Shown here: in pieces, positions 4,521 through 33,750 of the stretch | How the letters are laid out: each line of letters opens with the position of its first letter | How positions within the stretch are numbered: position 1 is the first letter of the stretch | Assembly (NCBI RefSeq): GCF_900101475.1 | Contig: NZ_FMZV01000006.1 | Span: 1 to 64,000 of the forward strand | Direction: 5' to 3' | DNA length: 64,000 nucleotides | Source of the DNA: Ruegeria marina | GTDB taxonomy: Bacteria > Pseudomonadota > Alphaproteobacteria > Rhodobacterales > Rhodobacteraceae | The notes under the pieces: model-generated | Databases searched by the model: none | What the model was told of the DNA's origin: nothing | What the model saw: only the letters and a program-made list of their open reading frames with translations | Translations under genes and position numbers: made by a program

Positions 4521-4560
4521 ACAGGCTCGGTACCCAATTTACTTCGGTCGGGAGATGGCG

Positions 4561-8432: not shown

Positions 8433-9632
8433 GTGACAATCGCCTATGTCCTGAACACCTATCCCCAGCCCTCGCACAGTTTCATCCGGCGCGAGGTGCA
8501 GGCGCTGGAGCGGCAGGGAGTCCCGGTCCTGCGGCTGGCGATGCGCCGCGCGGCGGTGCCGCTGGTCGATGCGCGCGACAGGGCCGAGGCGGAGCGGACA
8601 GAGTATGTGCTGGATCGCGGCGCGCTGGGGCTGGGCCTTGCGTTGCTGCGCCGGTTCCTTGTCGCGCCAGGTCGTGGCTTTGCGGCGCTGCGGCTGGCGT
8701 GGCGCTGCGGCCGGGTGTCGCCGGCGGGGCGGCTCCGGCACGTGATCTATCTGGCCGAGGCGGCGCATGTCGCGACCCGCTGCCGCGCGGCAGGCGTGAC
8801 CCATGTACATGCCCATTTCGGCACCAATTCCACGACCGTTGCCATGCTGGCCGAGGCGCTGGGCGGGCCGGGGTTTTCCTTTACCGTGCACGGGCCCGAG
8901 GAGTTCGATGCCCCGGCGGCGCTGTCGCTGCCCGAGAAGCTGGCGCGCGCGCGCTTTGCGGTGGGGGTCAGCCAGTTCGGCCGCAGCCAGCTCTGCCGCT
9001 GGACGGCATTCGCGGGTTGGGACCGGTTGCGGGTGGTCCATTGCGGGATCGAGCCTGCGGCCTTTGCCGATCCGGTGCCGGTGCCGGATGGTCCGCTGCG
9101 GCTGGTCGCGGTGGGCCGGTTTGTCGAGCAGAAGGGGCAGATGATCCTGCTTCAGGCGATGGCGCGGTTGGTGCGGAGCCATCCGCAGGCGCATCTGGAT
9201 CTGGTGGGCGATGGCGAGATGCGCGGCGATCTGGAGCGGGCGATTGTCGGGCTGAACCTCGGCGGCAATGTCACCCTGACCGGGTGGCTGGACCAGGACG
9301 GTGTGCGGGCGGCGCTGGACGCCGCGCATGCGCTGGTGATGCCCAGTTTCGCTGAGGGGCTGCCGATGGTGGTGATGGAGGCGATGGCGGCCGCCCGCCC
9401 GGTGGTGGCAACCTATGTCGCCGGCACGCCCGAGCTGGTGTGGCCCGGCGAGACCGGCTGGCTGGTGCCGGCGGCGGATCCGGCGGCGCTGGCCGATGCG
9501 CTGGAGGAAGTGGCCGTGGTCGGGCGACAGAGGCTCGACCGGATGGGACAGGCGGGGCGGGCCCGGGTGCTGGAACGGCATGACATCGACGGGCAAGCCG
9601 CGAAACTGGCCGAATTCTTCAAGAGCGGCTGA
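8433..9632 (+). CDS. Glycosyltransferase family 4 (WcaL/colanic-acid type)
   Basis: This is a 399-residue GT-B enzyme. The N-terminus reads TIAYVLNTYPQPSHSFIRRE, the usual opening of the colanic-acid-type GT4 subfamily. Other motifs are HAHFGTN, FTVHGPEEFD, the donor-domain start VAVGRFVEQKGQ, and the C-terminal E-x7-E block PSFAEGLPMVVMEAMAAARPVV (about residues 303-324). The GTG at 8433 is chosen because the family motif starts immediately after it. An in-frame ATG at 8244 would add 63 low-similarity residues. It likely adds one sugar to the lipid-linked repeat unit; donor and linkage are not readable. A strong hairpin follows the stop. Confidence 0.83.
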   Translation: MTIAYVLNTYPQPSHSFIRREVQALERQGVPVLRLAMRRAAVPLVDARDRAEAERTEYVLDRGALGLGLALLRRFLVAPGRGFAALRLAWRCGRVSPAGRLRHVIYLAEAAHVATRCRAAGVTHVHAHFGTNSTTVAMLAEALGGPGFSFTVHGPEEFDAPAALSLPEKLARARFAVGVSQFGRSQLCRWTAFAGWDRLRVVHCGIEPAAFADPVPVPDGPLRLVAVGRFVEQKGQMILLQAMARLVRSHPQAHLDLVGDGEMRGDLERAIVGLNLGGNVTLTGWLDQDGVRAALDAAHALVMPSFAEGLPMVVMEAMAAARPVVATYVAGTPELVWPGETGWLVPAADPAALADALEEVAVVGRQRLDRMGQAGRARVLERHDIDGQAAKLAEFFKSG

Positions 9633-9642
9633 GGTTGGGGAG

Positions 9643-9671
9643 GCCAGGAAAATTCGACGAATTTTCCTGGC
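9643..9671. terminator. Bidirectional hairpin terminator between convergent genes
   Basis: A near-perfect inverted repeat has arms GCCAGGAAAATTCG and CGAATTTTCCTGGC around a single A at 9657. It lies between the GT4 stop (9632) and the convergent GT2 stop (9684). The A/T runs inside the stem suit termination from both sides. The core TTCGACGAA is the same as in the hairpin at 38787. Confidence 0.75.
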
Positions 9672-9683
9672 TGCGCGACCACC

Positions 9684-10529
9684 TCAGCGGCCCCGCGTCC
9701 AGCGCGCGCGCGCACGGAAGAGCGGGGATTTCACGGCCAGCGATACGCCAGCGTAGACCGCAAATCCGACCGGGTCTCGCAGCAACCGGACCATCAGACC
9801 CGAGACGCCGAGGCGGGGTGTTCCGTCATTCTCCAATCGTTGCGGATAAAGCGCGGCCACCTCGGCTACGCCCGCGTTCTGGCGACGGCGCACCCGGACG
9901 AGGTTGGCAAATCCCTCGACCATCGGCCAGTCGTAACCGGGCGCAACCCGCACCCGTTCGGCGGGCGCAAAGCTGAGTCGCACGAATGTGTCGTCCGAGA
10001 TGATGTCGGGCCAGTCCTGCCAGCGCGCGCGCCCGGCGGCGTTCACCGCAAACAGGCCGAAACCCGGCACGCCGGTGGTGACAAAGGGCAGGGTTTGCCA
10101 GAACCGGCCATAGGCGCGGGTGATCCGGCTCAGGGCCGGGGCGAGGCGCGGCGTGCCGCTGGCGTAGCGGGGTGTGTCAGTGTCGAGCGCCCTCACCAGC
10201 GCTGCCATCAAATCGGGGTCGACCCGCACATCGGCGTCGAGATAGGCGCGCAAGGGCCCTTGTGCCGCGGCGTCTCCGGCGTTGAGCGCGCCGAGCTTGC
10301 CGCCCTCGGCCAGTTCCAGCACCGTCCAGCCCCAGCCGCGTTCGGCGGCGAGATCCGCCAGCGCGCGGGCGCGCGCGGCGGTGTCGTCGGAACAGCCATT
10401 GGCAACTACCACCGCCTCGCCCCGCCAGCCCTCGGGCAGCGGATCGGAGGCTAGGAGCGCGCGAGCGCAGTCACCGATCCAGTCGGCCTCGTCATGGGCC
10501 GGGATGATGACGCTGAGGTGCCGGGTCAC
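9684..10529 (-). CDS. Glycosyltransferase family 2
   Basis: This is a 281-residue GT-A enzyme: HLSVIIPAHDEADWIGDCA at the N-terminus, VVVANGCSDDT, GKLGALNAGD, then the metal-binding YLDADVRVDPD. The GTG start at 10529 overlaps the stop of the upstream SGNH/GH gene as GTGA, so this is the last gene of the seven-gene minus-strand operon starting with the PKS. The C-terminus has one weak hydrophobic stretch (FAVYAGVSLAV). Its position in the assembly-line operon suggests it glycosylates the product or builds the glycan that carries it; neither can be shown from sequence. Confidence 0.82.
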   Translation of the reverse strand: MTRHLSVIIPAHDEADWIGDCARALLASDPLPEGWRGEAVVVANGCSDDTAARARALADLAAERGWGWTVLELAEGGKLGALNAGDAAAQGPLRAYLDADVRVDPDLMAALVRALDTDTPRYASGTPRLAPALSRITRAYGRFWQTLPFVTTGVPGFGLFAVNAAGRARWQDWPDIISDDTFVRLSFAPAERVRVAPGYDWPMVEGFANLVRVRRRQNAGVAEVAALYPQRLENDGTPRLGVSGLMVRLLRDPVGFAVYAGVSLAVKSPLFRARARWTRGR

Positions 10530-13051
10530 TTCAGAAACTCCACCAGCGCATCCCAGCGCGGGTTGGCATCGTCGAGATGCCGCAGGTGCCCCCAGCTGCC
10601 CCATTTGTTGGGCCGGTAGACATCAGCATAGGCGGTGAACAACCGCCCGCCCACCGCGTGCCAGCCCCGGATCAGGTCGGTATAGAGATCGCCCATTTCC
10701 GGCGAATAGTTGAAATGGGTGAAAAAGGCGGTCAGTTCCTCGTCGTCGATCAGCGGGCCGGTTCCCACGACATGGGTTCCGCCTTCGTACATGATCAGGT
10801 CCAGCCCGTATTTTTCCGCCACCCCGGCATGATAGGGCAGCTGGGTGCCGAGGTTCTTGGCCAGCGTATCGGTCGCGTCACCGCTGGCCGCGCCATCGCG
10901 CAGCTCAGCCCAGGCCAGCGAGGTGGCGAGGTCGAACCGGTGCCGGGCAACATGGGCATCGCGTTCTGGGCCGGTCAACCCCTTGGCCTCGGCCTGCGCC
11001 GCCGCTTCGGCGGCGCTGTCGGCCAGCCACTGACGCAGCAAGGGCAGGCGCTGTTCCCAGCCCAGCGTGCCGCCGAAATAGCCGGTCACGGCATAGGCGT
11101 CGAAATGGCTGGCGGGGGCGGCGCGGCCCGGTTCCTCGGCCACCCAGGCGGGCGCGTCAAGGATCATCTCCTCCAGCCCGATCCAGCCCGTCTGGGTCGA
11201 GATTACCCGCACCAGCCGCGCCTCGGCCTGATCGCCAAAGACCTCGGCCCAGATATCGGCCATCTCGACCGCGCGGGCGGCGTAATAGCTGACCCAATGG
11301 TCCTTCCTGTTCCAGCGGGCGCGGGCCTGATCCTCGGCCCATTGCGCCTGGGTGAATTGCCAGTTCCAGACCTCGTTGGACAGTTCCACATAGGCGCGCT
11401 GTTCGATCCAGAGCGTGTCGCGCACGATCTCGGCAAAGCGGCGCATATAGTCGTCATCGGCCAGGTGGGGCATGTTGAACCAGCCGTCCGCGCCGGTACG
11501 GTTCAACAGGTCCACCATGATCTCGACCGGCACGCCCCTGACCGCCCAGGAGAAATCCTCGGGCCTCGGGCGATCCTTCCAGGCCGATTGCTGCGAATTG
11601 TTGGTCTGCATCCAGTCCATGAAGCGCAGCGCGCGAAAGCCGAAGAGCCGATCGAGCCAGCCGGGGTTGAAGCGCGCGCCGGCGTCAAAGGCGGCCAGAT
11701 GCTCTTGCTTGACCACCGTGATGTTGCGCACATACTCGCCGCCGCGGTGGGTGCGCTGGATTCGGATGTCGACCGGCCCGGGTCCGGGGGTATAGTCGAA
11801 CGCGACCCTGTTCCTGCCATAGCGCACGTTCTCGGCCCGGCCCAGGACTTCGACGATGCCCTGCCCCTCAAACCGCAGGACATAGCGCCCGGCGGCCGAA
11901 ACCGCCTCGACCGGCAGGTCGGTCAGGATCAGGGTGCCGATCGAGCCCAGCTCGGGCGGGATCGCCTTGGGCCAGCCGTTCTCGTCCAGGTAACCGGCGT
12001 CCTTCAGTTCGTCATATGTTGCGCCGCCGAACTGCCCGGGCAGGTGACCGATCCAGGGGCGTGCGGTCTTGAACACGTCGAGAAAGGGTTGTTGCACCGA
12101 CCAGTCGTTGACGCCGGCAAGCCCGATGGCGATGGCGACCGGCCCGTCGGGTTCCGGCGGCGGAACATAGCCTTGTTCCAATGTGGCGGGCGTTTCGGCG
12201 GGTTCGTCCGCCGCCGTGGCGGGGTCGGGCGCAGGGGCGACGGGTGCGGGCGGGGCGGGTGGCGCAAACCTCTGCACCGCCTCCCAGGCGACGGTTTGCA
12301 GGCGGGCGGCCAGTGCCGGGCTGGGGGCGTCGAAGGGCCTGCCCCAGCGGTCCTTCAGCCGGTGCGGCAGGCCGACCGGGCTTTCTCCGGTCAGGGCCGC
12401 GTATTGCACCATGGTCAGGAAGTAGAAGCCAAGGGGATTGGGGTGGATGTCGTCGTGAAACACCTGCGCAATCCGGTCGAGGCCCGGCACGGTGCCGTCG
12501 GCGATGGCGTCGGTCAGGGCCAGCATCGCCTGTCCGGCGGGCAGCAGCTGCATCGGCGTCGCGCCGGCAGGCCGGGTGGCGTTCACCCCGTCGACGATGG
12601 ATTGCCATTGGCCCAGGTCCTGTTCGATCCGCTCGCGCCAGGGTGTACCGGCGCCCGTGTCATGCTCGATCCGGGCGCCGCTGCCCGAGCGCAGGTCGTG
12701 CCATGTCTCTTGCAGGAACACGCGGGCCTGCGGGTTGGCCGATACCGCCAGGTCGTAATAACGCCGGGCATACCCAAGGCTGTCGTTGTACTGAATCTGG
12801 TTGGCCAGCGGGATCGCCTCGGTCAGGATCACCGCATCGTAACCGCCGCCCGCCAGCGCCGCGCGCGCGTTCACGCCCTCGGCCTTGTCGCCGTTTTCCC
12901 AGTTGTAGGAGAGAGGCGCGCCATTGATGATCTGCGCTTCGACCCGGACACCGTGCCCCTCCAGCACTGCCGAGAGCATGTCGGGATTGGTCGGGCCGAA
13001 CAGTGAATGGCCGATGAAAAGAACCCCGATCAGGGAGGAAAGCCAGCTCAT
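10526..13051 (-). CDS. Two-domain protein: SGNH-like hydrolase plus glycoside-hydrolase-like domain
   Basis: This 841-residue protein has two parts joined by a Pro/Ala-rich linker (about 265-300). Residues 1-250 resemble SGNH/GDSL enzymes: FIGHSLFG with candidate nucleophile Ser16, and DDIHPN supplying a D-x-x-H pair (Asp200, His203). Residues ~310-841 are unnamed by me but show features of clan GH-A barrels: VELSNEVWNWQF with Asn559-Glu560 as candidate acid/base, and IMYEGGTH with Glu756 as candidate nucleophile. The hydrophobic first ~12 residues could be a short signal or anchor. The start overlaps the stop of the following SGNH gene as ATGA. Both halves fit modification or trimming of an acylated glycan. 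Confidence 0.6.
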   Translation of the reverse strand: MSWLSSLIGVLFIGHSLFGPTNPDMLSAVLEGHGVRVEAQIINGAPLSYNWENGDKAEGVNARAALAGGGYDAVILTEAIPLANQIQYNDSLGYARRYYDLAVSANPQARVFLQETWHDLRSGSGARIEHDTGAGTPWRERIEQDLGQWQSIVDGVNATRPAGATPMQLLPAGQAMLALTDAIADGTVPGLDRIAQVFHDDIHPNPLGFYFLTMVQYAALTGESPVGLPHRLKDRWGRPFDAPSPALAARLQTVAWEAVQRFAPPAPPAPVAPAPDPATAADEPAETPATLEQGYVPPPEPDGPVAIAIGLAGVNDWSVQQPFLDVFKTARPWIGHLPGQFGGATYDELKDAGYLDENGWPKAIPPELGSIGTLILTDLPVEAVSAAGRYVLRFEGQGIVEVLGRAENVRYGRNRVAFDYTPGPGPVDIRIQRTHRGGEYVRNITVVKQEHLAAFDAGARFNPGWLDRLFGFRALRFMDWMQTNNSQQSAWKDRPRPEDFSWAVRGVPVEIMVDLLNRTGADGWFNMPHLADDDYMRRFAEIVRDTLWIEQRAYVELSNEVWNWQFTQAQWAEDQARARWNRKDHWVSYYAARAVEMADIWAEVFGDQAEARLVRVISTQTGWIGLEEMILDAPAWVAEEPGRAAPASHFDAYAVTGYFGGTLGWEQRLPLLRQWLADSAAEAAAQAEAKGLTGPERDAHVARHRFDLATSLAWAELRDGAASGDATDTLAKNLGTQLPYHAGVAEKYGLDLIMYEGGTHVVGTGPLIDDEELTAFFTHFNYSPEMGDLYTDLIRGWHAVGGRLFTAYADVYRPNKWGSWGHLRHLDDANPRWDALVEFLK

Positions 13052-13995
13052 TGCGGAACTCCGGTCTTGGGGTAGGTGGTCACGATCTGCCAGACCACCT
13101 CCTGCATCAGGCGCGCGGCCTCGGGCGAGGGGGCGCGGGCCGGTGTGCCGTCGGCCTTCAGCAACTCATGCGGCAGGCCCACGGGCGAGCGCTGGTAGAG
13201 CACGGCGTAATGGGTCAGCGCCACCATGTAGTTGCCCAGATCGCCCATGTGGATCGGGTCGAGCTTGCCCTCGGGATCGGTGCCGAAGAGCTGTTCGGCG
13301 CTGGTGATGCCGCCGACACCGCCCCGCGCCTCGACCTCGCGGACAAAGCGCGACAGCACCTGCCCGACCGGGATGACATGCGCGGGCTGGTCGGGATTTC
13401 GGGCGAGATCCTGAAGCAGGATGCCGTTCTCCCACAACTCGACCAGGTCGCGGTCGAGCCGGTTGAGCCAGCCATCCGGATCGTCCAGCCAATGCCAGGT
13501 CTCGTAGAGAAACACCCGCGTGTCGGGGCGCCCCTGCCGGGCCAGATCGGCCCATTTGGTGAAATAATCGTCGCTGTCGAGATACTTGATCGCGTCCCTC
13601 AGTTCGAGCATCTCGGTCAGGATCACGGCATCGTATTCGCCTGACCCGATCGCCTCGTCCGCAGGCCGGTAGCGGGGGTGGGCGTTCATCACGTCAAAGC
13701 CCTTGATCGGTTCGTCGGCCTCCCAATGCGCTTTCATCGGCGTGCCCCAGCCCAGCTGGCTGTCATAGCTGTGGCCCTGGGGCGCAAGCTGTTGCAGCAT
13801 CGCGGGCATGTCATGGCCGACCAGGCTGTGGCCCAGGTGGAACACGGCCATCGGACCCGGCGGCGGCGGCAGGGGTTGGGCATAGGCGGCGGCCACAATG
13901 GCGGCGTCCGGCAGGCGCGGTCGCAGCCAGAACCACCAGAACGCGGCGACCATAAGGCCGAGAACGAGAAGGATCAGGGCGATAAAGCGAGTCAT
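13048..13995 (-). CDS. Membrane-anchored SGNH-like protein, paralogue of the neighbour's N-terminus
   Basis: This is a 315-residue protein with one N-terminal membrane helix (about residues 4-24) followed by a Pro-rich spacer, so the bulk is probably periplasmic. The core repeats the motifs of the adjacent 841-residue protein: VFHLGHSLVG (candidate nucleophile Ser57), YDAVILTE, TRVFLYETWHW, and DPIHMGD (Asp246, His249), ending with SPVGLPHELL. The shared blocks YDAVILTE, RVFL-ETWH and SPVGLPH show that the two arose by duplication. An acyl esterase or acyltransferase acting on a glycan is a reasonable guess. It lies 31 bases downstream of the phosphopantetheinyl transferase gene. Confidence 0.6.
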   Translation of the reverse strand: MTRFIALILLVLGLMVAAFWWFWLRPRLPDAAIVAAAYAQPLPPPPGPMAVFHLGHSLVGHDMPAMLQQLAPQGHSYDSQLGWGTPMKAHWEADEPIKGFDVMNAHPRYRPADEAIGSGEYDAVILTEMLELRDAIKYLDSDDYFTKWADLARQGRPDTRVFLYETWHWLDDPDGWLNRLDRDLVELWENGILLQDLARNPDQPAHVIPVGQVLSRFVREVEARGGVGGITSAEQLFGTDPEGKLDPIHMGDLGNYMVALTHYAVLYQRSPVGLPHELLKADGTPARAPSPEAARLMQEVVWQIVTTYPKTGVPQ

Positions 13996-14026
13996 GGTCG
14001 AAATCTAGGTCATCGGGGCCGGGATA

Positions 14027-14698
14027 TCACGCGGGCTCGGCTATTGCCGTGACAATCAGCCCCTCTCCGGCCGCATAGCGCCCATGCAGCACATGCCCGC
14101 GTCGGAAACCGGGCATGTCGGAGCGGAAAGTGGCGCTGAAGCGGCGGCTGCCGGTGTCGAGCGCGATGCGCAAAGCGTCGAAACCGAACAATGTGCGGCT
14201 GATCGGGTATTGCGCCTTGTAGGCGCATTCCTTGGCCGAGAAGATCAGCTTGGCCCAATGGCCGGGGTCATCCTGCCCGGCAAGCCAGGCACGTTCGGCC
14301 GGGGAGCAAACAGTCGGAATCAGGTCGGGATCGAGGGGGGTGTCCTCTTCGAGATCGAGGCCGAGGAGCCGCAGTTCCCCTTCCCAGGCGACAGCGGCCA
14401 GGCAGGCGGTTCCGGTATGGGTGATGCTGCCCAATAGGCCCGGCGGCCAGATCGGCGCGCGGTCGGCGCCCATGGGAACCGCCATCGCAGGTGCGCCCAG
14501 TTCACGCAGGGCGAGCCGGGCGGCGGTGCGGCCCGCGGCGAACTCGCGCCGGCGCCTGTCAACCGCACCTGGGATCGCGGCCAGTTCCTCGGGATAGGCT
14601 TCATAGTCCCGTGTCGGATCGGCCGCGGCAAGGGCGGCCTGTCGGCCCAGCAGGGGCGAGGCGAGCAGCAGCGCCTCGGTCGGGCCGGGGCTGCTCAT
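14027..14698 (-). CDS. 4'-phosphopantetheinyl transferase (EntD/Sfp superfamily)
   Basis: This 223-residue enzyme would attach the phosphopantetheine arm of CoA to the carrier domains of the NRPS and PKS upstream. Hallmarks are GSITHTGTACLAAVA, LLGLDLEEDTPL with the Mg-binding acidic residues, and the WAKLIFSAKECAYKAQYP block (W/F-S-x-K-E-x-x-x-K). The EntD-like N-terminal segment (RRREFAAGRTAARLAL) is also present. The ATG overlaps the NRPS stop as ATGA, so translation is coupled. A dedicated transferase beside the assembly line is typical and indicates the pathway is intended to be functional. Confidence 0.92.
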   Translation of the reverse strand: MSSPGPTEALLLASPLLGRQAALAAADPTRDYEAYPEELAAIPGAVDRRRREFAAGRTAARLALRELGAPAMAVPMGADRAPIWPPGLLGSITHTGTACLAAVAWEGELRLLGLDLEEDTPLDPDLIPTVCSPAERAWLAGQDDPGHWAKLIFSAKECAYKAQYPISRTLFGFDALRIALDTGSRRFSATFRSDMPGFRRGHVLHGRYAAGEGLIVTAIAEPA

Positions 14699-17600
14699 CG
14701 GACCCGTTCCTGCCGGTTGGCGCGCATCGCGCGCCGCCGCGACATGGTGTCGGCGCGCTCGGCGGTGTCCACCACCGGCTGCGCCGGTTCCGCCGGGGCC
14801 GCACCCTGCGACAGATGCGCGGCCAACCTCCGAAGCGTTGGGAAGCGGAAGATGTCGGTGATCGGCAGGGCCGGCACGTTCAACGCCGCGCGGATCTCGC
14901 GATGGGCCTGCACCGCCAGAAGGGAATGGCCACCAAGGGTAAAGAAGTTGTCCGACGGCCGGATGTCGCCCACACCCAGGATGCGCGACCAGATGGCGGC
15001 GATCTGTGCCTCGGCCCCGGTCGGCGGCTCGGAGGGTGCCGCCTGCGCGGTGCGCTGCGGCACCGGTTCGGGCAGCGCCTTGCGGTCGATCTTCTTGTTC
15101 GGCGTCAGCGGGAAGGCGTCGAGCGTCACGATATGGGCGGGCACCATCACCTCGGTCAGGCGCGCGGCCAGATGCGTGCGCAGCGCGGCATCCGACACCG
15201 GCCCGCCGGTGGTGACATAGCCCACCAGCCTTGTGTCGCCGCCCATGTCGCGGGCGATTACCACTGCGCCGGTCACGCCGGGATAGGCCGCGATGGCCGC
15301 CTCGATCTCGCCCAGTTCGATCCGCTGGCCGCGGATCTTGACCTGGTGATCGCTGCGGCCAAGGAAGTCGAGCCGCCCGTCGGCACGCCAGCGCACCAGA
15401 TCGCCGGTCCGGTACATCTGCGGCGCGGCGGTCACGGTCAGCCCGGCCTCGGCCGCGAACGGGTCGCGCGGGAAACGCTCCTCGGTCAGGTCGCAGCGCT
15501 GCCAGTAGCCCCGCGTCACGCCCTCGCCGCCGATGCACAGCTCGCCCGGCACGCCGATTGGGCAGGGCTGGCCCGCGCCGTCCAGCACATAGACCGAGGT
15601 ATTGGCGATCGGGGTGCCGACATTCACCGTGCCGCTGACGCCAGGACCAACCGCCTCGCAGGTGGACCAGATCGTGGTCTCGGTCGGCCCGTACATGTTC
15701 AGGATGCGGGCGCCGGTCGCCTCGCGCAGATCCTCGACCAGATCGCCGGGCAGCGCCTCGCCACCAAGCAGCAGGTGTTTCACCCGGCCAAGTGCCAGGC
15801 GCGCCTCGTCATTCAGGGCGATCATCCGCGCCATCGAGGGCGTGCATTGCATATGCGTCACCCCATGGCGCACGATCTGCGCGGCGAGCGAGAAATCATC
15901 CTCGGCCAGCGCGCTGGGCGCGCGCACCCGCTTCAGCACCTCGGCCAGGGGTTTCAGCCCTTCCAGCACCACGGCGGGGTCGATGCCATAGTCGATGAGA
16001 CAGGCCACCTCGTCCACGCCGATGCGTTTGAGCTGTTCGACGCGGGCCACCGCATCGCTGATGGTGCCAAACAGCCCCGAGTCCTCGAAATAGCGGTCAA
16101 AAGCGAAATCGAGGATGGCCTCCAGCTCGTCGCCGCTGAGCACGCCCAGATCCATCTCGAACGCATTGGTCACACCCTTGGGTTTCTTGAACGCGGGGAA
16201 GGCCCAGGCATATTGCTTGATCAGCCCGGCGGCCGAGCGCAGGTAATCCTTCATCGGCTCGCGGGCGGTGCGCGCCGCCTCCTCGCGGCTGTCGGCCAGA
16301 TAGGTGTGCAGCATCAGCGTCACCTTGAAATCGGCCGGGTCATGGCCCGCCTCGCGCAGGGCGGCGTGATAGATGCGGATCTTGTCGGCCACCTCGTCGA
16401 TGCTCTGGCCCAGAAGGTGGGTCAGCACGTTGGCGCCGACGGAGCCTGCCTCGCGCCAGGTTTCCGGGTTGCCGGCGGTGGTGACCCAGAGCGGCAGTTC
16501 CTTCGACACCGGGCGCGGCTGGGTGACGACCGAATGCATGCTGCCGTCGGCCTTGGGGAACTCCACCGCCTCGCCGCGCCAGAGCCTGCGCAGGGTTTCG
16601 ATCGTTTCGAACATCGCGGGCTTGTTGCGCGGCGGGGTGTTTTCCGGGCGCAGGATGAAATCGTCGGGCTGCCAGCCCGAGGCGATGCCAAGTGCGGCGC
16701 GCCCGCCGGTGAGATTGTCGATCACCGCCCATTCCTCGGCGATGCGGGCGGGGTGATGCAGCGGCGCCACGCAGGACCCGGCGCGCACGCTGAGGTTTTT
16801 CGTCACCGCAGCCACCGCCGCGCCGGTCACGGATGGGTTCGGATAGGGGCCGCCAAAGGCGTGGAAGTGGCGTTCCGGCGTCCAGACCGCGTTGAACCCG
16901 TGCGCATCGGCGAATTTCGCGCCTTCGAGCAGCAGTTCGTATTTCTTCGGCCCCGGCCCGTCGTCATTGCCCCAGTACATCAGGTTGAAGTCGATCGGCC
17001 GGTCGCTGACCGCGATCGGGCCTTTCGACACTTCGGCCCGGTTCTCGTCCGAGCTCAGCACCACCTTGAAACCGCGCGCGAGGGTCCAGAACAGCTCCAG
17101 CACCGAGATGTCGAAGCTGAGCGAGGTGACCGCCAGCCAGACGCCGCCATTGGCATGGTCGATGCGGTCGTCCATGCCGGTAAAGAAGTTCACCACGTTC
17201 CGGTGTTCGACCATCACCCCCTTTGGGGTGCCGGTCGAGCCCGAGGTATAGATCACATAGGCCAGATCGTCGGCGGTGGCGCCGCCGTCGACGGGTTCCG
17301 CGTGTGCCTCTGTCAGCGTGTCGAGGTCGAGCACATGGGCATCGGTCGCGGGCAGGCTGGATTTGCGCGCGCCGCTCGTCACGATCACCGCCGCGCCGCT
17401 GTCGCTGACGTAATGGGCGATGCGGTCGGCCGGATAGGCAGGGTCGAGCGGCACATAGGCGCCGCCCGCCTTCAGCACGCCAAGTGCGGCGATCAGCAAT
17501 TCGGGCGAGCGGTCGAGATAGACCCCCACATGGCTGCCGGGCGCGACGCCCAGATTGCGCAGCCGGGCGGCGACACCGTTGGCACGGGCGTCGAGCGCGG

Positions 17601-19296: not shown

Positions 19297-20300
19297 CTGC
19301 TGTCCTCCGGAAAAGCGGCGGCGGGCGTCGGGCTCGCAGGGGTGCGAGCCAGCGTGCGGCGTAAGGAATGGGCGATCAGGTCGGTCAGGAAACCATCCGG
19401 ATCGGAACTCGGCTTGTGCCGGATCAACTGACGCAGGCGCCAGACCAGCGTACCCGCAATCAGGGCGAGGGTGGTCCAGAGCGTATAGGCCCGGCCATGG
19501 TTCTTGAGAGAATAATGCAGTCGCGAATCGAACCAGTATTGCGGCGTGCGTTTCCATTTCCGCATCCCGGTGCTGGCCGAACCGATATGGACAACGCCGA
19601 CTTCGGGCAGGTACCAGGTCTCCCAGCCCGCCGCAGCGGCGCGGCGGCACAGGTCGGTTTCCTCGAAATAGAGAAAGAAGGTTTCATCGAAGCCGCCGGT
19701 GGTCTCGATCACCTCGCGCCGGACCATCAGGCTCGCGCCCGATGCCCAGTCCACCCGGGTCCGGGTCCGGGGCAGAGGCGGGGCGATGATCCTGTTCCGC
19801 AGCAGGCGCGAGATCGGGCCGGTGCGGGCGGCGGCCTCGAATTCTCCGGCCGCCGAGGGAAAGCGAAACGCGGTAAGATGCGGGGCATTGTCATCGCCGC
19901 GTACCGCGCTGGCGGCAAACCCTGCCCGCGGCGTCGCGACCAGAAAGTCGCGAAGCCCCCGGATGCAGCCGGGATCGGGCCAGGCGTCGGAGTTCAGGAG
20001 ATAGTAGAAATCGGGGGCAGACCCGTCCGACAGCCCCGCCCGCATGCCGAAGTTCATGCCAGCCCCGAAGCCGCCGTTGCGACCGCTTTCGACGATGCGG
20101 AATCTGCCGCCTGCATCCCAGCCATGGGCGGCGGCCGCCTGTTTCAGCCGTTCCACCGACCCGTCGCCCGAGTCGTTGTCAACCACGATCACCTCTCCGG
20201 GCAGGTCCTGCATCTCGCGCATGGCCGCTTCGCAGGCGCGGATCGTCAGATCCGGCGTGCGATAGTTCAGGATCACCGTCAGGACGGTCGGTTCGTTCAT
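19293..20300 (-). CDS. Glycosyltransferase family 2 (rhamnosyltransferase-like)
   Basis: This is a 335-residue GT-A enzyme resembling WbbL-type rhamnosyltransferases: [20 protein letters not shown] at the N-terminus, [25 protein letters not shown], then [13 protein letters not shown] as the metal-binding region. The acceptor block is [37 protein letters not shown]. A hydrophobic stretch near residues 265-285 may associate with the membrane. It lies between the PKS (stop five bases upstream of its ATG) and the NRPS (ATGA overlap), so it is translated with the assembly line. That placement makes glycosylation of the assembly-line product, or its attachment to a glycan, the leading hypothesis. 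Confidence 0.83.
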   Translation of the reverse strand: [335 protein letters not shown]

Positions 20301-20304
20301 GCCT

Positions 20305-23300
20305 CTACTCCGCAGCCTTGTCCAGGGGCAGGCAGGCATCCGCATCGCGCAGCCGCTTGCGCAGATGTTCGGTCAGGACCGAAACATTCGGCACCAGCAC
20401 CATGCTGTCATGATCGCCGGGCACTTCGATGACCTCGATGTTCCGGGCGAATTTTCCCCAGTCGTTGTCGTCGAACACGTATTCGCGCGCGCCGCTGACC
20501 CAGTTGCCGCCCGTAACCTTCCAGCGCCGGTCCAGAGGCGGGCGGAACATCAGGAGCGGCCCGTCCCACGGGCGCGGCCGATAGCGCGCGATCGAACCGC
20601 GAAAGGCGGCTTCGATCCGGGCATTGTTGAAGGCCGCCCCGCCCGCGTCCTGCACCGGCGCGCGCCGGCGGTTCACCTCCCAGGCGAGCCGGGTACGGAC
20701 CCAATCCATGAGGAAGCGCGGGCCCTGCTCGGTGAACTGGCGCAGCTTGATGATGGCGCGGTCGCGGCGGCCCAGCGCCGGGCGCACCGGCAGCGGCGTG
20801 TCCAGCATCGCCAGAAGCGCGACCTCCTCGCCGGCGGTTTCAAGCTGGCGGGCGATCTCGTAGGCGGTGATGCCGCCACCGGAAAAGCCGCCCAGCAGGT
20901 AAGGCCCGTGCGGCTGGATCTGACGCATCTCGGCGATGTAGTCGGCCGCCGCCGCCTCGATCGTATCATGCGGCGCCTCGTCGCCTACCAGCCCGCGCGC
21001 CTGAAGCCCGTACACCGAGCGGTCGCGCCCCAGCATCAGCGCCAGATGGCGCAGGTTCAGCACGTTGCCGAACATGCCCGCCACCACGAAGAAGGGCGTT
21101 TTGCCGCCCGGACCCACATCGTGCAGCGGCACAACATGGGCAAAGGCGGGAGTATCCCCGGCCGGCTCCGCGCTGTCGCCGGACAGGGCCGCCGAGCGGC
21201 CGATCCGGGCGTCGATCCTCTCGGCGATGCGGGCGACGCTGGGGGCCTCGAACAGGACGGAGATCGGGAATTCCACGCTGAACGCGCGGTTGATCTGGGC
21301 AAACAGGCGCACGGCGATCAGCGAATGGCCGCCGAGATCGAAGAAACTGTCCTGCGTGCCGACCTGGCTGACCCCCAGAAGGGTTTCGAAGAACCCCGCA
21401 AGCGTCTTTTCCGTCTCGGTCTGCGGCGCGACATATTCGATATCGAGCTGTGGCCGCTCAAAACTCTGCCCGGTCTCGGCGGGGGCCGAGATCTGCTCGG
21501 CCTCGGCAACCAGCCGGGGCAGGTCGAGCGAGGAGACAACCACCTGCGGCAGTCCGCTGTTCAGCGCCCGCTCCAGCGCGGCGGCGCCCTCTTCGGCGCG
21601 TATCCCCTGCGCGATATTGCGGTGCAGGCGCTGTTCCTCGGGCGACAGGGCCGCCGACTTGCGGACCGGTTCCAGCCCGAGCGCGGCGGCATCTGCATCG
21701 GCCCTGGCCGGATCCCCGAGGTCGATGGTGCCGGCGGTGCGCTGCATCTGGAACCCCGCGATATCGACCAGCACCCGGCCCGACGGATCGGTCAGCGTGA
21801 TATCGAACGAGGCGAACCCCTCGGTCGGCGTGGTTCCGGGCGTGGGTCGCATCCAGCTGCGGATTTCGGCGGGCAGCGGGGCAAAGACGCGCAGCGACCG
21901 GTACGAGACCGGCACCCACAGGGCCCGGCCCCGGTATCCGCGCGCCAGTTCGATGGCCCAGCCGGTGGCAAGATCCAGAAGACCGGGATGCATCTGGTAG
22001 CCCTGGTCGAGGTCGCGTCGGTATTCCTCGGGCAGGGCCAGCCGGGCCAGCCCCTCGTCCTCGCCTCGCGAAGTGGCGCGCAGCACCTGCCAGCGCGGGC
22101 CGAATTTCAGATGCGCTTCCTGCGGCGAATGCAGAACCTCGCCAACCGGAGCGGTCGCCGCCTGCGGGCAGCGCGCGCCGATGGCGGCCAGGTCGAGCGT
22201 ACCGGCCTGCGCGGCGGGGGCGACGACCAGCGAAGCCTGCGCGTTCTGCACGTAGCCGCCGCCCGGCAGGGCGCTGTGCACGGTGAAGGCGTAGCCATCA
22301 CCCGTGGTTTCGAGCCGCACGATCACCTCGCGCGGGGCGCCGTTCACCCGCAGCGGGCGGAAGAAATAGAGATCGCGTATCTCGAACGGATGCGTCACGC
22401 CCTGCGCGCGCAGCGCTTCGGTAGCCATTTCGATATATCCGGTTCCCGGCAGCAGCGCCTCGCCCGAGGCGGTGCGGTGTTCGTTGAACACCCAGTCCTC
22501 GGCGCTCAGGCGAGAGACGAAAAACCGGTTGCCTTCCTCGTCGAACCCGGCCTCGTGCAACAGCGGCAGGCCGGTTGCAACACGTTCGGTGGCGGAATCG
22601 CTGCCCAGCCGCGTGGCGCGCGCCTCGGCGGCCATGCCGACATCGGCCCAGACGCCCCAGTTCACCGCCACGACCCGGGTCTTGGCCCCGCTGCGGCTGC
22701 TGGCAAAGGCATTCAGATATTCGTTGGCCGCGACGTAATCGACCTGGCCCGCCGGACGGCTGGCGGTCGAGGAAGAGGCGAACAGAACCATCAGTTCCAG
22801 CACGCCGTCGGGGAACAGTTCGTCCAGCACCCGGAGCCCGGTCATCTTGGGCGCCAGCACCCGGTCCAGCCCGGCCTCGGTCTTGGCCAGGATCGGCCCG
22901 TCCTCGATATGACCGGCGGCATGGATGACGCCGGTCAGCGCGCCGAACCGGTCCTGCGCGGTGTCGAGCGCCGCGCGCATCTGGCCGATGTTGCAGACAT
23001 CGGCGGCAATCGCGGTGATCCGGCCCCGGTCCAGCGCCTCCAGCGCCTCCAGCGCGCGGATGCGGCGGCTGGTCTTGTCGGCGGGGCTGTGCGTGGCAAG
23101 CCAGCCGGCGCGGTCGGCGGACAGCTCCTCGCGCCCCAGCAGGATCACATTGGCGCCATGGCGCTGCATCAGGCGGCGCGCCAGCGTCAGCCCGATGCCG
23201 CCGAATCCGCCGGTGATCAGATAGGTGCCGCCGTCGCGGAAGGCAGGAGCATCCCCCTCCAGCGGCGCCGGGCGATAGCTGCGGCCGAACCGCTTGCCGT

Positions 23301-26300
23301 CGCGCCAGGCGGCGATTGTATTTCCGGGTTCGGCCAGCAGTTCTTCCAGCAGGCGCGGGGTCAGGTCCTCGTCCTGCTCGGGGGCGGCGCCGCGCAGCCG
23401 CGCCAGCAGCGGCGGGCGCAGGCGCGCGGGTAGTTCGATATCGACCGAGGCGCAGGTGATCCCCGGCATCTCGTGCGGCAGCACCCCCAGCGGCCCCGCG
23501 ACGGTGGCCTTGGCCGGATAGGGCAGCGTCTCGCTGCGGACCTGCGCCGCGCCGGTGGTGAAGGCGGTGATATGGACCGGACCCGGCAGTTCGACCTGCC
23601 CCAAGGCCTGCGCCAGCCATGTGAGGCTGAAGAAGCCGTGTTCCATGTTGCGGTCGTGGAAACTGGAACCGGGGCGGAAGCTTTCTGCCGCGGTCACCAG
23701 CCAGAAATGCCCGATCCGGTCGGGCAGGCGGCCTTGTGCCGCCAGATCGCGCAGCATCAGGTCATAGCCCATGCGCCCCTGTTCCGGGGCCAGTTCGAAC
23801 CGGGTGTCGGACTGTTTGACATAGCTGTCGCTGGCTCTGACCCGCGCCACCCAATGGCCGGCGGCCTCGAGCCGGTCGGCCGCCCTGGCGGCCAGCCCCC
23901 CGGCATCGAGAAAGATCAGCCAGTTCAGCGGCGCGGTGCCCTCCAGCTCGGTTTCGACGTCGATGTCGCATTCGGCCAGACGCGGCCGCCAGACTGGACG
24001 CCAGCCCCATTGCGCCATGTCGTCGATCCGCGACAGCACCTCGCGCGGCTCCTCGGCCCGCAGGGTACCGGGTTCGATGAAATAGCGGCTGCGCTGGAAC
24101 GCATAGGTCGGCAGCGGCAGGCGGTGGCGTTTGGCCTCGCCCCAGATCTGCGGCCAGTCAGCCTCGACCCCGCAGGCCCAGAGCCGCCCGATCACACCGA
24201 AGAAATAGGCGTCGTCGGCGATCTCCTGGTCGGGGTGGCGCAGGGAACTCAGCACCTGGCCGGGTGACACGGCGGGCGACGTCTGTGCCAGCGAACTCAG
24301 CGCCTTGCCGGGGCCGACCTCCAGGAACACCCGGTCGCGCCCCTCGGACAGCGCCGCGATGCAATCGGCGAAAAGCACCGTGTTGCGCAACTGGGCCACC
24401 CAATAGTCGGGGCTGGTGGCCTGTTCTGCGGTCAGCTCTTCGCCGGTGCGGTTCGACTGGATCGGGATCTGCGGCGCACTCAGGCTGAGTCCGCGCAGGA
24501 AATCGCCGTACTCCTTCAGGATCGGCTCCAGCATTCGCGAATGCGCGGCAATATCGATCTGGATGCGCTGATACTCGACCTCGCGGGCGCTCAGCACCTC
24601 GGCCAACCGGTCCAGCGCCGCCTGCGGGCCGCTGACGGCGGTCAGGCGGGGGGCGTTGACGCTGGCGATGTCCAGATCCTCGTCGATCAGCGCCTGCACC
24701 TCATCGAGCGGCAGCGAAACCGACAGCATGCCGCCCGGCGCCACCGTGTCGAACAGCCGCCCGCGCAGCAGCACCAGGTCAATGCAATCCTCGAACCGCA
24801 TCACGCCGGCCAGACAGGCGGCGGTGTTCTCGCCCATGGAATGGCCGACCAGCGCGGCGGGCCGCACCCCCCAGCTGAGCCAGAGCTGCGCCAGCGCGTA
24901 TTCGACGATCATGATCAGAGGCAACTGCACCGAGGGCTGTTGCAGCCGGGCATTGGCCTCGGCCATGTCACCGTCAGGCAGCCAGATGGCGCGGATATCG
25001 TAATCGAGGCTTTTCTGCAGATGCGCCAGCCCCCGGTCCATCCATTCGGCAAAGACGGGTTCGACCTCGTAAAGGTCGCGCGCCATGCCCGCATATTGCG
25101 CCCCGCCACCGGGGAACATGAAGACCACATCGGTCCCGGCTCCCAGCGCGTCATGGGTAAATACACGGCGCGGATCGCCCTGGTCCAGCAAATCGGCGGC
25201 CTCAAGCGCGGTTTCGGCCACCAGCACGCGGCGTTTCTCGAACCCGCGGCGGCCCTCTTTCAGCGTATAGGCCACATCGGCCAGGTTGACCTCCGGGTTG
25301 GCGCGCAGCCAACCGGCCAGCGCCTTGGCATTGCCATCGAGTGCGGCGCGCGAGCGGGCCGATATGCACAGGATCTGGAACGGGAAATCGCTTTCCTCCG
25401 AGGCGGCGCGCTCTGGCGCTTCCTCAAGGATGACATGCGCGTTGGTGCCGCCGACGCCCAGGCTGTTCACCGCGCCCCGGCGCGGCCCCTTGTGCGGGGT
25501 CCAGTCGGTCAGCCGGTCGTTCACCCGGAACGGGCTGGTCTCGAAATCAATCGCCGGGTTCGGCGCCTCGTAGCCCAGCGAGGGCGGGATCTGCCTGTGA
25601 TGCAGCGCCAGCGCGGTCTTGACGAAGCTCGCCACCCCGGCGGCGGTGTCCAGATGGCCGATATTGGTCTTGACCGAGCCGATCTTGCAAAAGCCGCTCT
25701 CGGCGGTCTGTTCCCGGTACGCCTGGGTCAGGGCCGATACCTCGATCGGGTCGCCCAGATAGGTGCCGGTGCCGTGGCATTCGACATAGTCGATGGTGTC
25801 GGCCGGCACATCCGCCGCCTTCAGCGCCGCGCTGACCGCCTGCGCCTGGCCGCCCACCGAGGGCGCCAGATAACCCGCCTTGTCGGCGCCGTCATTGTTG
25901 ATCGCGCTGCCTTTTATGACGGCCCAGATATGGTCGCCGTCGGCCAGCGCATCCTCGAGCCGGCGCAGCGCCACCACGCCCGCGCCAGAACCGAACACGG
26001 TGCCCTGCGCCCGGTGATCGAAGGCGTGGCAATGGCCATCGGGGCTGAGGATCTCGTTTTCCTTGTAGAGATAGCCGCGCCCCTGCGGCAGTTCGATGGT
26101 GGAGCCGCCCGCCAGCGCCATGTCGCATTCGCCCTCGCGCAGCGCCTTGCAGGCGTAGTGGATGGCGACCAGCGAGGTGGAACAGGCGGTCTGGATATTG
26201 ACCGAGGGTCCGTGCAGGTCGAAGACGTGACTCACGCGGGTCGACAGGAAATCCTTGTCGTTGCCGGTGTGGCGCAACAGGAACATGCCGACGTCATCGA

Positions 26301-26733
26301 CCAGCCCCGGGTTCGAGCAGATGTTGAAGTAGAAATAGCTGCCCATGCCGCAGCCTGCATAAACCCCGATCGGCCCGGATACCGAATCCGGCGGATGACC
26401 GGCATTTTCCATCGCTTCCCAGGCGGTTTCCAGAAACTGGCGGTGTTGTGGGTCGAGGATCGCGGCTTCCTTGGGGGAAAAGCCAAAGAAATCGGCGTCG
26501 AACCGGTCGAACCCGTCCAGCGGCGCCGCCGCGCGGACATAATTGGGGTCTGCCAGCAGGTCGGGGCGCTCTCCGGCCGCGATCAGCGTCTCGTCATCAA
26601 GCCGCCGGATCGATTCGATCCCGGCCCTGAGATTGTCCCAAAACTCGGCAGCCGACGCGGCGCCGGGAACGTGCACGGACATGCCCACGATGGCGATGTC
26701 GCCTTCCTGCTTGCAAAAGTCACTCGTTCCCAT
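20305..26733 (-). CDS. Type I polyketide synthase module: KS-AT-KR-DH-carrier-TE
   Basis: This is a single-module 2142-residue PKS. The ketosynthase spans about 12-440 with Cys184 (TACSTSL), the VECHGTGTYLGDP histidine and KTNIGHLDTAAG. The acyltransferase spans about 540-850 with Ser632 (GHSMGE); the region where HAFH/YASH is normally read is IAAHS, so malonyl use is likely but not proven. Ketoreductase: Rossmann motif TGGFGGIG near 1172, Tyr1333 in DYVAANEYL. The dehydratase-like domain follows the KR instead of preceding it: His1419 in NEHRTASGEALLPGTGY, Asp1587 in HPGLLDLATG. The carrier is peptidyl-like (DLGGHSL, Ser1804). The thioesterase has Ser1951 (GFSGGG) and His2108 (PGDHDSM). It probably takes the aminoacyl unit from the NRPS, extends it once and releases it. 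Confidence 0.9.
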   Translation of the reverse strand: MGTSDFCKQEGDIAIVGMSVHVPGAASAAEFWDNLRAGIESIRRLDDETLIAAGERPDLLADPNYVRAAAPLDGFDRFDADFFGFSPKEAAILDPQHRQFLETAWEAMENAGHPPDSVSGPIGVYAGCGMGSYFYFNICSNPGLVDDVGMFLLRHTGNDKDFLSTRVSHVFDLHGPSVNIQTACSTSLVAIHYACKALREGECDMALAGGSTIELPQGRGYLYKENEILSPDGHCHAFDHRAQGTVFGSGAGVVALRRLEDALADGDHIWAVIKGSAINNDGADKAGYLAPSVGGQAQAVSAALKAADVPADTIDYVECHGTGTYLGDPIEVSALTQAYREQTAESGFCKIGSVKTNIGHLDTAAGVASFVKTALALHHRQIPPSLGYEAPNPAIDFETSPFRVNDRLTDWTPHKGPRRGAVNSLGVGGTNAHVILEEAPERAASEESDFPFQILCISARSRAALDGNAKALAGWLRANPEVNLADVAYTLKEGRRGFEKRRVLVAETALEAADLLDQGDPRRVFTHDALGAGTDVVFMFPGGGAQYAGMARDLYEVEPVFAEWMDRGLAHLQKSLDYDIRAIWLPDGDMAEANARLQQPSVQLPLIMIVEYALAQLWLSWGVRPAALVGHSMGENTAACLAGVMRFEDCIDLVLLRGRLFDTVAPGGMLSVSLPLDEVQALIDEDLDIASVNAPRLTAVSGPQAALDRLAEVLSAREVEYQRIQIDIAAHSRMLEPILKEYGDFLRGLSLSAPQIPIQSNRTGEELTAEQATSPDYWVAQLRNTVLFADCIAALSEGRDRVFLEVGPGKALSSLAQTSPAVSPGQVLSSLRHPDQEIADDAYFFGVIGRLWACGVEADWPQIWGEAKRHRLPLPTYAFQRSRYFIEPGTLRAEEPREVLSRIDDMAQWGWRPVWRPRLAECDIDVETELEGTAPLNWLIFLDAGGLAARAADRLEAAGHWVARVRASDSYVKQSDTRFELAPEQGRMGYDLMLRDLAAQGRLPDRIGHFWLVTAAESFRPGSSFHDRNMEHGFFSLTWLAQALGQVELPGPVHITAFTTGAAQVRSETLPYPAKATVAGPLGVLPHEMPGITCASVDIELPARLRPPLLARLRGAAPEQDEDLTPRLLEELLAEPGNTIAAWRDGKRFGRSYRPAPLEGDAPAFRDGGTYLITGGFGGIGLTLARRLMQRHGANVILLGREELSADRAGWLATHSPADKTSRRIRALEALEALDRGRITAIAADVCNIGQMRAALDTAQDRFGALTGVIHAAGHIEDGPILAKTEAGLDRVLAPKMTGLRVLDELFPDGVLELMVLFASSSTASRPAGQVDYVAANEYLNAFASSRSGAKTRVVAVNWGVWADVGMAAEARATRLGSDSATERVATGLPLLHEAGFDEEGNRFFVSRLSAEDWVFNEHRTASGEALLPGTGYIEMATEALRAQGVTHPFEIRDLYFFRPLRVNGAPREVIVRLETTGDGYAFTVHSALPGGGYVQNAQASLVVAPAAQAGTLDLAAIGARCPQAATAPVGEVLHSPQEAHLKFGPRWQVLRATSRGEDEGLARLALPEEYRRDLDQGYQMHPGLLDLATGWAIELARGYRGRALWVPVSYRSLRVFAPLPAEIRSWMRPTPGTTPTEGFASFDITLTDPSGRVLVDIAGFQMQRTAGTIDLGDPARADADAAALGLEPVRKSAALSPEEQRLHRNIAQGIRAEEGAAALERALNSGLPQVVVSSLDLPRLVAEAEQISAPAETGQSFERPQLDIEYVAPQTETEKTLAGFFETLLGVSQVGTQDSFFDLGGHSLIAVRLFAQINRAFSVEFPISVLFEAPSVARIAERIDARIGRSAALSGDSAEPAGDTPAFAHVVPLHDVGPGGKTPFFVVAGMFGNVLNLRHLALMLGRDRSVYGLQARGLVGDEAPHDTIEAAAADYIAEMRQIQPHGPYLLGGFSGGGITAYEIARQLETAGEEVALLAMLDTPLPVRPALGRRDRAIIKLRQFTEQGPRFLMDWVRTRLAWEVNRRRAPVQDAGGAAFNNARIEAAFRGSIARYRPRPWDGPLLMFRPPLDRRWKVTGGNWVSGAREYVFDDNDWGKFARNIEVIEVPGDHDSMVLVPNVSVLTEHLRKRLRDADACLPLDKAAE

Positions 26734-27010
26734 GGCCTGACCAAACGATCCTGTTCGTTTACCTCAGCCCGCCTACCCGGCCACCATCTAAGCCGCCGTT
26801 TCGCCAAGCTGAAAGGCAATAATTTTAACTGTTCTTGCCGTAATTCCCTAACGCACTGTGACAATGACACGAAACCTGTTGCCTTCGGAATGTGTCCTGT
26901 TCCCGATTGCGCACAACACAGTTTTTCCAGAGAAATTGTGGCGGAAACAGGGACAATTGAAGGTGCATTCCCGTGCTTTTCGGTGAAGTTTTCGGGGCAT
27001 CACGGCCCGT
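26734..27010 (-). promoter_or_regulatory. Leader region of the NRPS-PKS operon
   Basis: This 277-base gap upstream of the PKS ATG is more AT-rich than its surroundings, especially 26815-26960. It should contain the promoter that drives the seven-gene minus-strand operon down to 9684. The only Shine-Dalgarno-like element is a weak TCAGG just before the ATG. I could not assign -35/-10 boxes or an operator. The Wzy-like gene upstream is on the same strand, so read-through is also possible. Confidence 0.4.
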
Positions 27011-28474: not shown

Positions 28475-28657
28475 TGGACTCCGTCTGGCTGGTTCCGGTC
28501 GCTATTCCAGGCCGATCCTATCAGACCGGGTTTGGCCTGTCGTCAGATAGAGCCCGATTTGGGCGATCCGGTGGCAGGATCGGCACGGTTTCGCAGCAAG
28601 TCTTGGCATCGCGCGCCCTTGTCCGTTAAGGAGTTGGAAAAATGGGAGAGCAGCCAG

Positions 28658-33727: not shown

Positions 33728-33750
33728 TTTAATTTGACACAAAAATTAAA
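33728..33750. promoter_or_regulatory. Candidate XylR (ROK) operator upstream of xylB
   Basis: This 23-bp palindrome reads TTTAATTTGAC, then ACAA, then AAATTAAA. It matches the site at 41719 at all but three central positions. It begins 58 bases before the xylB ATG and ends 36 bases before it, in an otherwise GC-rich sequence. This is where a repressor would block the xylBA promoter. AT-rich palindromes of this type are known for ROK-family xylose regulators. Confidence 0.8.

Follow-up and report, generated by a model that had tools for sequence, protein, structure and literature searches.

The DNA analysed here, termed the window, is a stretch of 64,000 nucleotides from Ruegeria marina (positions 1 to 64,000 of contig NZ_FMZV01000006.1, part of a 4.99 Mb genome in 51 contigs), and it harbours a hybrid polyketide synthase-nonribosomal peptide synthetase (PKS-NRPS) operon inside a polysaccharide locus of the Wzx/Wzy type. 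Seven open reading frames run from the PKS to a terminal glycosyltransferase, all of them intact, collinear and on the minus strand. Comparison with related loci revealed that the conserved unit is smaller and consists of the PKS, a family-2 glycosyltransferase (GT2a), the NRPS and a 4'-phosphopantetheinyl transferase (PPTase), in the following called the core, of which PKS, NRPS and PPTase are termed the cassette, and that the genetic link of this cassette to polysaccharide loci is well supported.

The operon begins with a type I PKS of 2142 amino acids (20305–26733), for which the order ketosynthase (KS), acyltransferase (AT), ketoreductase (KR), dehydratase (DH), acyl carrier protein (ACP) and thioesterase (TE) was derived from Pfam domains and conserved catalytic residues. 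It is followed by GT2a (19293–20300, 335 amino acids, PF00535), the NRPS (14695–19296, 1533 amino acids) and the PPTase (14027–14698, PF17837 and PF01648). The remaining three genes encode an SGNH-type protein, either hydrolase or acyltransferase, whose N-terminus is hydrophobic (13048–13995), an 841-residue protein in which an SGNH domain is fused to a glycoside-hydrolase-like TIM barrel (SGNH-GH, 10526–13051) and a further family-2 glycosyltransferase (GT2b, 9684–10529, 281 amino acids, PF00535). These coordinates contain corrected starts for GT2a (20300), the NRPS (ATG at 19296), the PPTase (14698) and GT2b (10529). Four-base stop/start overlaps were found at the GT2a-NRPS, NRPS-PPTase, SGNH/SGNH-GH and SGNH-GH/GT2b junctions, and gaps of 4 and 31 bases separate PKS from GT2a and PPTase from SGNH, respectively. 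The tight same-strand packing described in the initial annotation was thus recovered with the corrected coordinates, as was its gap of 31 bases, whereas the gap given there as 5 bases measures 4. A terminator scan of positions 9400–29000 returned 12 sites compared with a shuffle mean of 10.5 and consequently gave no evidence of an internal terminator. The gene identities proposed before could be kept for the PKS, both glycosyltransferases, the PPTase, SGNH and SGNH-GH, and that of the NRPS was refined to a formylating start module.

On both sides the operon is flanked by polysaccharide genes. Directly upstream of the PKS, across a gap of 277 bp, lies a Wzy-like polymerase gene (27011–28474, minus strand; weak PF04932 match of 22.6 bits, cut-off 31.7), followed by a WecG/TagA/CpsF-type glycosyltransferase gene (28619–29446, plus strand), which clusters with L189:15421-16179, a match to PF03808. 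Next come a GFO/IDH oxidoreductase fused to a sugar epimerase/dehydratase (29418–31517; PF01408 and PF01370), the counterparts of which stand separately in related loci, the family-2 glycosyltransferase GT2c (31525–32496; PF00535) and a group-1 glycosyltransferase (32493–33569; PF00534), all three on the minus strand. Beyond them, positions 33750–44212 form a sugar-use block with an FGGY kinase, a TIM-barrel isomerase-like protein, a MauG-like di-haem cytochrome, a periplasmic sugar-binding protein and a permease. On the other side, a group-1 (GT4-like) glycosyltransferase gene stands tail to tail with GT2b (8433–9632, plus strand; PF13692, corrected start). It is followed by the Wzx flippase (6870–8228, minus strand; PF13440, 144 bits, over cut-off), a Wzz-like chain-length protein (5591–6865, plus strand; PF02706 just below cut-off with 23.3 versus 25.5 bits), a Wzc/CpsD-like protein of a conserved cluster (4495–5493, plus strand; named by eye, with no Pfam match and an uncertain start) and an ExoY-like priming sugar transferase (3693–4520, plus strand; PF02397 over cut-off at 3933–4502). 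Flippase, polymerase, chain-length protein, priming transferase and glycosyltransferases therefore occur together, as in Wzx/Wzy-dependent loci. The flanking by Wzx, Wzy, Wzz and ExoY-like genes claimed earlier is confirmed, with Wzx and the priming transferase over their cut-offs and Wzy and Wzz below theirs but conserved across loci.

In the PKS, the KS Cys and two His, the AT Ser, the KR Ser/Tyr/Asn, the DH His and Asp and the ACP Ser are kept in 41 of 41 sequences and the thioesterase Ser in 40 of 41. No enoyl-reductase domain appeared in the Pfam scan, and KR precedes DH, which departs from the usual bacterial order. The NRPS comprises a formyltransferase, a region without Pfam match, an adenylation domain interrupted by a luciferase-like monooxygenase (MOX) of 350 residues and a peptidyl carrier domain. 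The MOX insert (15937–16989; TIGR04020 above cut-off with about 474–479 bits, 478.5 bits at these coordinates) sits between FDISVLE and NMYGPTE, which we take to be adenylation motifs A4 and A5, and the glycine code lies in the same domain. This code reads DILQLGMIW at nine positions in the window, and the form DILQ-x-G-M/V-I/V-W is present in all 120 NRPS homologues, 28 of them placed outside Rhodobacteraceae; the Lys of motif A10 is found in 116 of the 120, with 4 gaps. The residues N, H and D, presumably catalytic in the formyltransferase, are kept in 118 of 120 sequences. In the predicted structure of residues 1–545 (mean predicted local distance difference test (pLDDT) score 94), the formyltransferase part matches the Fmt and ArnA folds.

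A profile built from 36 sequences of the unassigned NRPS region matched a two-sequence alignment of condensation-domain proteins from the same genome with 96.7% probability, compared with 0.1% for the neighbouring formyltransferase, and the region accordingly resembles the C-terminal half of such a domain. Furthermore, the motif HHxxxDG, which belongs to the missing half, does not occur within the first 700 residues of 119 of the 120 homologues. This half domain together with the missing motif ruled out an ordinary NRPS with a catalytic condensation domain and argues for a start rather than an elongation module; judged by its domains, the NRPS is a formylating start module. In view of the glycine-type code, the conserved formyltransferase and the likeness to formylating start modules, the product would be expected to start from a formylglycine that is oxidised by MOX and then undergoes one or more rounds of extension on the PKS.

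SGNH and SGNH-GH gave no match in the Pfam or NCBIfam scan. In SGNH, Ser57 (within GHSL) and D246xxH249 are invariant in 17 aligned sequences, and we take Ser plus DxxH to be the motif of SGNH hydrolases. For SGNH-GH, an AlphaFold model (mean pLDDT 82) was used in a fold search, which returned GDSL/SGNH esterases as well as GH10, GH26, GH5 and GH1 barrels with low TM-scores, so that the glycoside hydrolase family cannot be named. N559-E560 and E756 are invariant in 15 sequences, and the C-terminal part shows the features of clan A, namely a TIM barrel with two conserved Glu, the first of them after Asn. The SGNH half is missing from the homologues in L080, L083, L085 and L148, and those in L089, L090 and L148 end in a glycine-rich, calcium-repeat-like sequence (named by eye). 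Both proteins look like envelope enzymes editing glycan or acyl groups. Across the 20 family loci examined over 60 kb (see below), SGNH was found in 4, SGNH-GH in 11 and GT2b in 12; they are accessories of a subset of loci. With these numbers the seven-gene operon was rejected as a conserved unit. SGNH-GH (two genomes), GT2b (one) and a GT2a homologue (four) are likewise present in polysaccharide loci that lack the PKS-NRPS.

TIGR04020 exceeded its curated cut-off in 105 of 295 Rhodobacteraceae genomes (294 genera), a domain count that includes at least two short frames (G263, 363 amino acids; G244, 392 amino acids) and some frames cut by contig ends. From 40 of these 105 genomes a stretch of 20 kb (12.8 kb in one case) was sampled, and therein a PKS homologue accompanies the NRPS in 40 of 40, with GT2a in 37 and the PPTase in 33; all loci were found via the NRPS, and a PKS without NRPS was not searched for. 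GT2a usually stands between PKS and NRPS, and the core junctions are mostly overlaps or gaps of a few bases. Given this recurrence in 40 other genomes, the packing in the window is not due to chance.

Twenty of the 40 genomes were extended to 60 kb. The core lies inside a polysaccharide locus in 18 of them, in three gene orders, and its neighbours include Wzz (18), the Wzc-like protein (18), WecG (17), GT2c (17), GT4 (17), Wzx (15), Wzy (13) and the priming transferase (11). The other two genomes, G144 and G217, contain no GT2a or GT2c match at E ≤ 1e-25 genome-wide. For comparison, random stretches of the same genomes, 300 kb away (200 kb in G217), carried assembly genes in 1 of 20 cases versus 16 of 20 core stretches. 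Moreover, for PF02397, which is independent of the locus profiles, 20 of 40 genomes have a match at most 30 kb from the NRPS, where 1.7 would be expected; in 12 of the remaining 20, the contig with the NRPS lacks PF02397 altogether.

The wider scan covered the best 80 of at least 589 candidates, with NRPSs mostly of full length and many metagenome bins among them, and reached from Rhodobacteraceae, Rhizobiales, Sphingopyxis and Ramlibacter to Deltaproteobacteria, Gemmatimonadota, Chloroflexi, a planctomycete, a cyanobacterium and others. As the 40 and 80 loci share genomes (L039/L114, L053/L157, L058/L080, L078/L120), the counts based on 92 loci and on 120 sequences are not fully independent; L139, a Myxococcota metagenome-assembled genome with Rhodobacteraceae-like genes, was counted with the outgroups. 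An assembly gene was present in 76 of 92 Rhodobacteraceae loci, and 7 of the 16 without one are contigs under 12 kb. The 82 Rhodobacteraceae loci with at least nine called genes split into 73 with GT2a and an assembly gene, 6 with GT2a only, 2 with an assembly gene only and 1 with neither (short flanks). GT2a was also considered as a perfect marker of the polysaccharide setting, which holds in the 20 genomes over 60 kb and fails across all loci. Outside Rhodobacteraceae, polysaccharide genes were found near the NRPS in Agrobacterium, Aureimonas, Rhizobium, one Sphingopyxis, two Deltaproteobacteria loci, the Ramlibacter bin L137 and the Pseudomonadales bin L158, and the GT2a proteins of the two Deltaproteobacteria loci, both with the cassette, are 45 and 51% identical to that of the window. 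In a further arrangement (L062, L101, L107, L124, L143) PKS and NRPS are adjacent and followed by PPTase and SGNH, with Wza nearby.

According to the deposited annotation, the polysaccharide setting recurs on plasmids of Ruegeria sp. SCSIO 43209, Aminobacter sp. MSH1 and Paracoccus sp. Arc7-R13, all three with flippases and glycosyltransferases, accompanied by sugar transferases, an O-antigen-ligase-family protein or a polysaccharide export protein. In the SCSIO 43209 plasmid, a short hypothetical gene and a transposase (L229:24668-25454) occupy the expected place of the PPTase after the NRPS, so this cassette may be damaged. In the polysaccharide locus of the Arc7-R13 plasmid, another NRPS gene immediately adjoins that of a WecB/TagA/CpsF glycosyltransferase (L231, 1–3304). 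GMC oxidoreductase genes recur in some loci, for example beside an AT3-SGNH acyltransferase (L220:3751-7322) or a short-chain dehydrogenase/reductase gene (L231:6697-9011), and could serve in making or attaching a modified sugar. Outside the window, the R. marina genome contains a second PKS-NRPS line, likewise in a polysaccharide setting (G000:C17:60000-95999; L232, L233). It consists of a 3392-residue frame (3226 residues seen) with AMP-binding, KS-AT, class-III aminotransferase, condensation and carrier domains and of a condensation-carrier-thioesterase protein, and adjoins Wzx, Poly_export, Wzz/AAA, glycosyltransferase and priming transferase genes. Of 29 other genomes tested, one (G144) has a relative.

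Related polysaccharide genes also exist without the cassette. Eleven cassette-bearing genomes and 50 others, the latter below the TIGR04020 cut-off, were chosen, not drawn at random, and 4 of the 50 carry GT2a-like and GT2c genes. Wzy and GT4 occur in all four genomes, Wzx and a strong WecG match in three each, SGNH-GH in two and GT2b in one, and no PKS or NRPS match was obtained in the stretches fetched (40, 40, 22 and 20 + 15.5 kb). In G137 the genes are spread over two contigs, so linkage is not established there. Judging from this gene content, polysaccharide synthesis does not seem to require the cassette, and SGNH-GH and GT2b seem to be part of the polysaccharide machinery. Mean identities within cassette-bearing loci compared with those between the groups are 61 versus 37% for GT2a and 55 versus 40% for Wzx, the largest differences observed. 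The corresponding values are 54 versus 52% (GT2c), 57 versus 55% (WecG), 49 versus 44% (Wzy), 50 versus 45% (GT4), 51 versus 44% (SGNH-GH), 56 versus 47% (GT2b), 55 versus 56% (priming transferase), 39 versus 29% (Wzz) and 51 versus 41% (Wzc). A transferase and a flippase are the genes that we would expect to follow a changed repeat unit. The cassette-free proteins form two long branches in the GT2a tree, and one pair of them is placed beside the cassette-bearing G152.

Taken together, we consider it slightly more probable than its opposite that the PKS-NRPS-PPTase cassette makes a small acyl unit for the surrounding Wzx/Wzy-dependent polysaccharide. Covalent incorporation, the chemistry and the roles of GT2a, SGNH and GH enter this reading as inferred parts. 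In the proposed sequence of events the PPTase would arm both carrier domains, the adenylation domain would load glycine, the formyltransferase would cap its nitrogen and the embedded MOX would oxidise its alpha carbon (or nitrogen). The PKS would then add a C2 unit, reduce and perhaps dehydrate it, and the thioesterase would release or transfer the acyl group. GT2a may handle the modified sugar or acceptor, whereupon Wzx would flip the modified unit and Wzy polymerise it; SGNH and SGNH-GH, where present, may act outside the cytoplasm as editors of acyl groups and glycan chains. More tentatively, with somewhat less than an even chance, about one third of the sampled family genera would build a repeat unit with a residue derived from formylated, oxidised glycine and malonate, either as a glycan monomer or as a decoration. 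We favour a product incorporated into the polysaccharide over one that is merely glycosylated, two cases which the sequence cannot separate.

Several observations weigh against a role in the polysaccharide, and some of them speak for a small molecule that is secreted in free form (as a signal, metallophore or antibiotic) and perhaps carries a sugar added by GT2a; its genes would then lie with the polysaccharide genes because both serve surface life. With some neighbours scanned, no glycan genes were detected beside the pair in L121 (Gemmatimonadota), L154 (Chloroflexi), L144 (a planctomycete), L134 (Acanthopleuribacter), L153 (a gammaproteobacterial bin) and L145 (Ramlibacter rhizophilus), where the neighbours seen were hydrolases, transporters, an aminotransferase, a ferrochelatase and others without glycan role. 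The original role may therefore have been that of a free metabolite, and the product need not be part of a glycan in these organisms. Several phyla and two of the 20 family genomes (G144, G217) rule out a strict link everywhere. The coupling to glycan genes put forward in the initial annotation thus recurs in most family genomes examined, in several orders of genes, on chromosomes and plasmids and in other bacterial groups, but it is not universal, and homologous pairs beside which no such genes were detected do exist. An attaching acyltransferase or ligase common to all loci was not found (SGNH and AT3-SGNH each in 4 of 20), the PKS thioesterase suggests that a free product could be released, and the published readings are those of a metabolite cluster (PMC10584327, PMC8273931). 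On the other hand, among the unlabelled gene families shared by at least 4 of 20 loci, scanned with one representative each, there was no metabolite exporter, and the sole ABC ATPase family (9 of 20) resembles amino-acid transport. Wzx and GT2a diverge more than the other genes when cassette-bearing and cassette-free loci are compared, and GT2a usually lies between PKS and NRPS. We regard a free molecule as rather unlikely. The remaining points against the polysaccharide role concern the evidence itself: the neighbour profiles were built from the same loci, which makes the control and the count of 18 of 20 partly circular; the group comparison is based on one to four cassette-free sequences per gene, with cassette-free GT2a and Wzx diverging among themselves as well (43 and 36%) and Wzz, Wzc and GT2b, with one such sequence each, likewise dropping by 9–11 points. 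GT2a is not always interleaved, a GT2a-like gene being apart or unseen in L062, L101, L107, L124 and L143; its tree is weak (13 of 32 inner branches open), for which reason no direction of gain or loss was drawn; and in the DH motif of the PKS an additional residue separates His from Gly.

A lipid or terminal anchor has been proposed as the product of RkpA/WcbR-type PKSs in capsule loci, and the PKS of the window might make one for its polysaccharide. The wcbR/rkpA genes described in capsule clusters provide a precedent for a PKS beside polysaccharide genes (PMC3908369). Here, however, the PKS has a formylating glycine module as its partner, shows no Pfam enoyl-reductase domain and sits with Wzx/Wzy genes, and an amino-acid start with a single, partly reducing module is ill-suited to a long saturated chain, which renders an anchor improbable. 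We judge it just as doubtful that PKS-NRPS and polysaccharide genes merely share a mobile surface island without joint function. Polysaccharide islands are hot spots of gene exchange and some copies are on plasmids, but several gene orders hold the same set, in most loci GT2a is interleaved, with overlaps or gaps of a few bases to its neighbours, and the link is also found in Rhizobiales, one Sphingopyxis and two Deltaproteobacteria loci.

Regarding known systems, conglobatin, oxazolomycin, rhizopodin and linear gramicidin have the closest start modules found, all with a formyltransferase; in such modules the formyltransferase domain is described to formylate the carrier-bound first amino acid, which is glycine in conglobatin (PMC4504003). 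The best PDB match was to linear gramicidin synthetase chains. Unlike the conglobatin-type modules, the NRPS of the window has a half condensation domain after the formyltransferase, an adenylation domain split by MOX and a polysaccharide setting. Adenylation domains for glycine with MOX, which we assume to be of the MtaG/MelG type, are said to cleave glycine in known systems, leaving a terminal amide, whereas the module of the window starts the chain and has a formyltransferase. In a survey of adenylation codes, the four domains of this kind are all reported to share DILQLGMIWK, to which the window code is identical in nine positions plus the Lys of A10 (PMC12283262). RkpA/WcbR resemble the window in that a type I PKS lies inside polysaccharide genes, and no NRPS or formyltransferase partner is mentioned for them in the part of that report considered (PMC3908369), a distinction drawn from the description. 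In contrast to a PKS without NRPS partner, the window PKS and 40 of 40 family PKSs are paired (loci chosen by the NRPS).

The core itself has been met before. One survey recorded an NRPS-like/T1PKS cluster in 18 of 37 species (PMC10584327), and the hybrid cluster of Paracoccus marcusii CP157 was reported to be more than 95% identical to that of Paracoccus sp. Arc7-R13 (PMC8273931). These orphan hybrids of Roseibaca and CP157 are very probably the same cluster as the core of the window, since Roseibaca domitiana V10, the strain of the former study, corresponds to L150 and the Arc7-R13 plasmid carries the core. Both reports treat them as clusters for bioactive metabolites, and the word polysaccharide is absent from their main texts (PMC10584327, PMC8273931). 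Among the listed titles and abstract beginnings, there was no report linking the Rhodobacteraceae PKS-NRPS cluster to polysaccharide. If the proposed role is true, a very common orphan cluster of this family shifts from unknown antibiotic to surface glycan chemistry, which would suggest where to look for its product and would hint at bacterial polysaccharides modified in a new way, as a class of their own; this idea can be tested directly on loci that have or lack the cassette.

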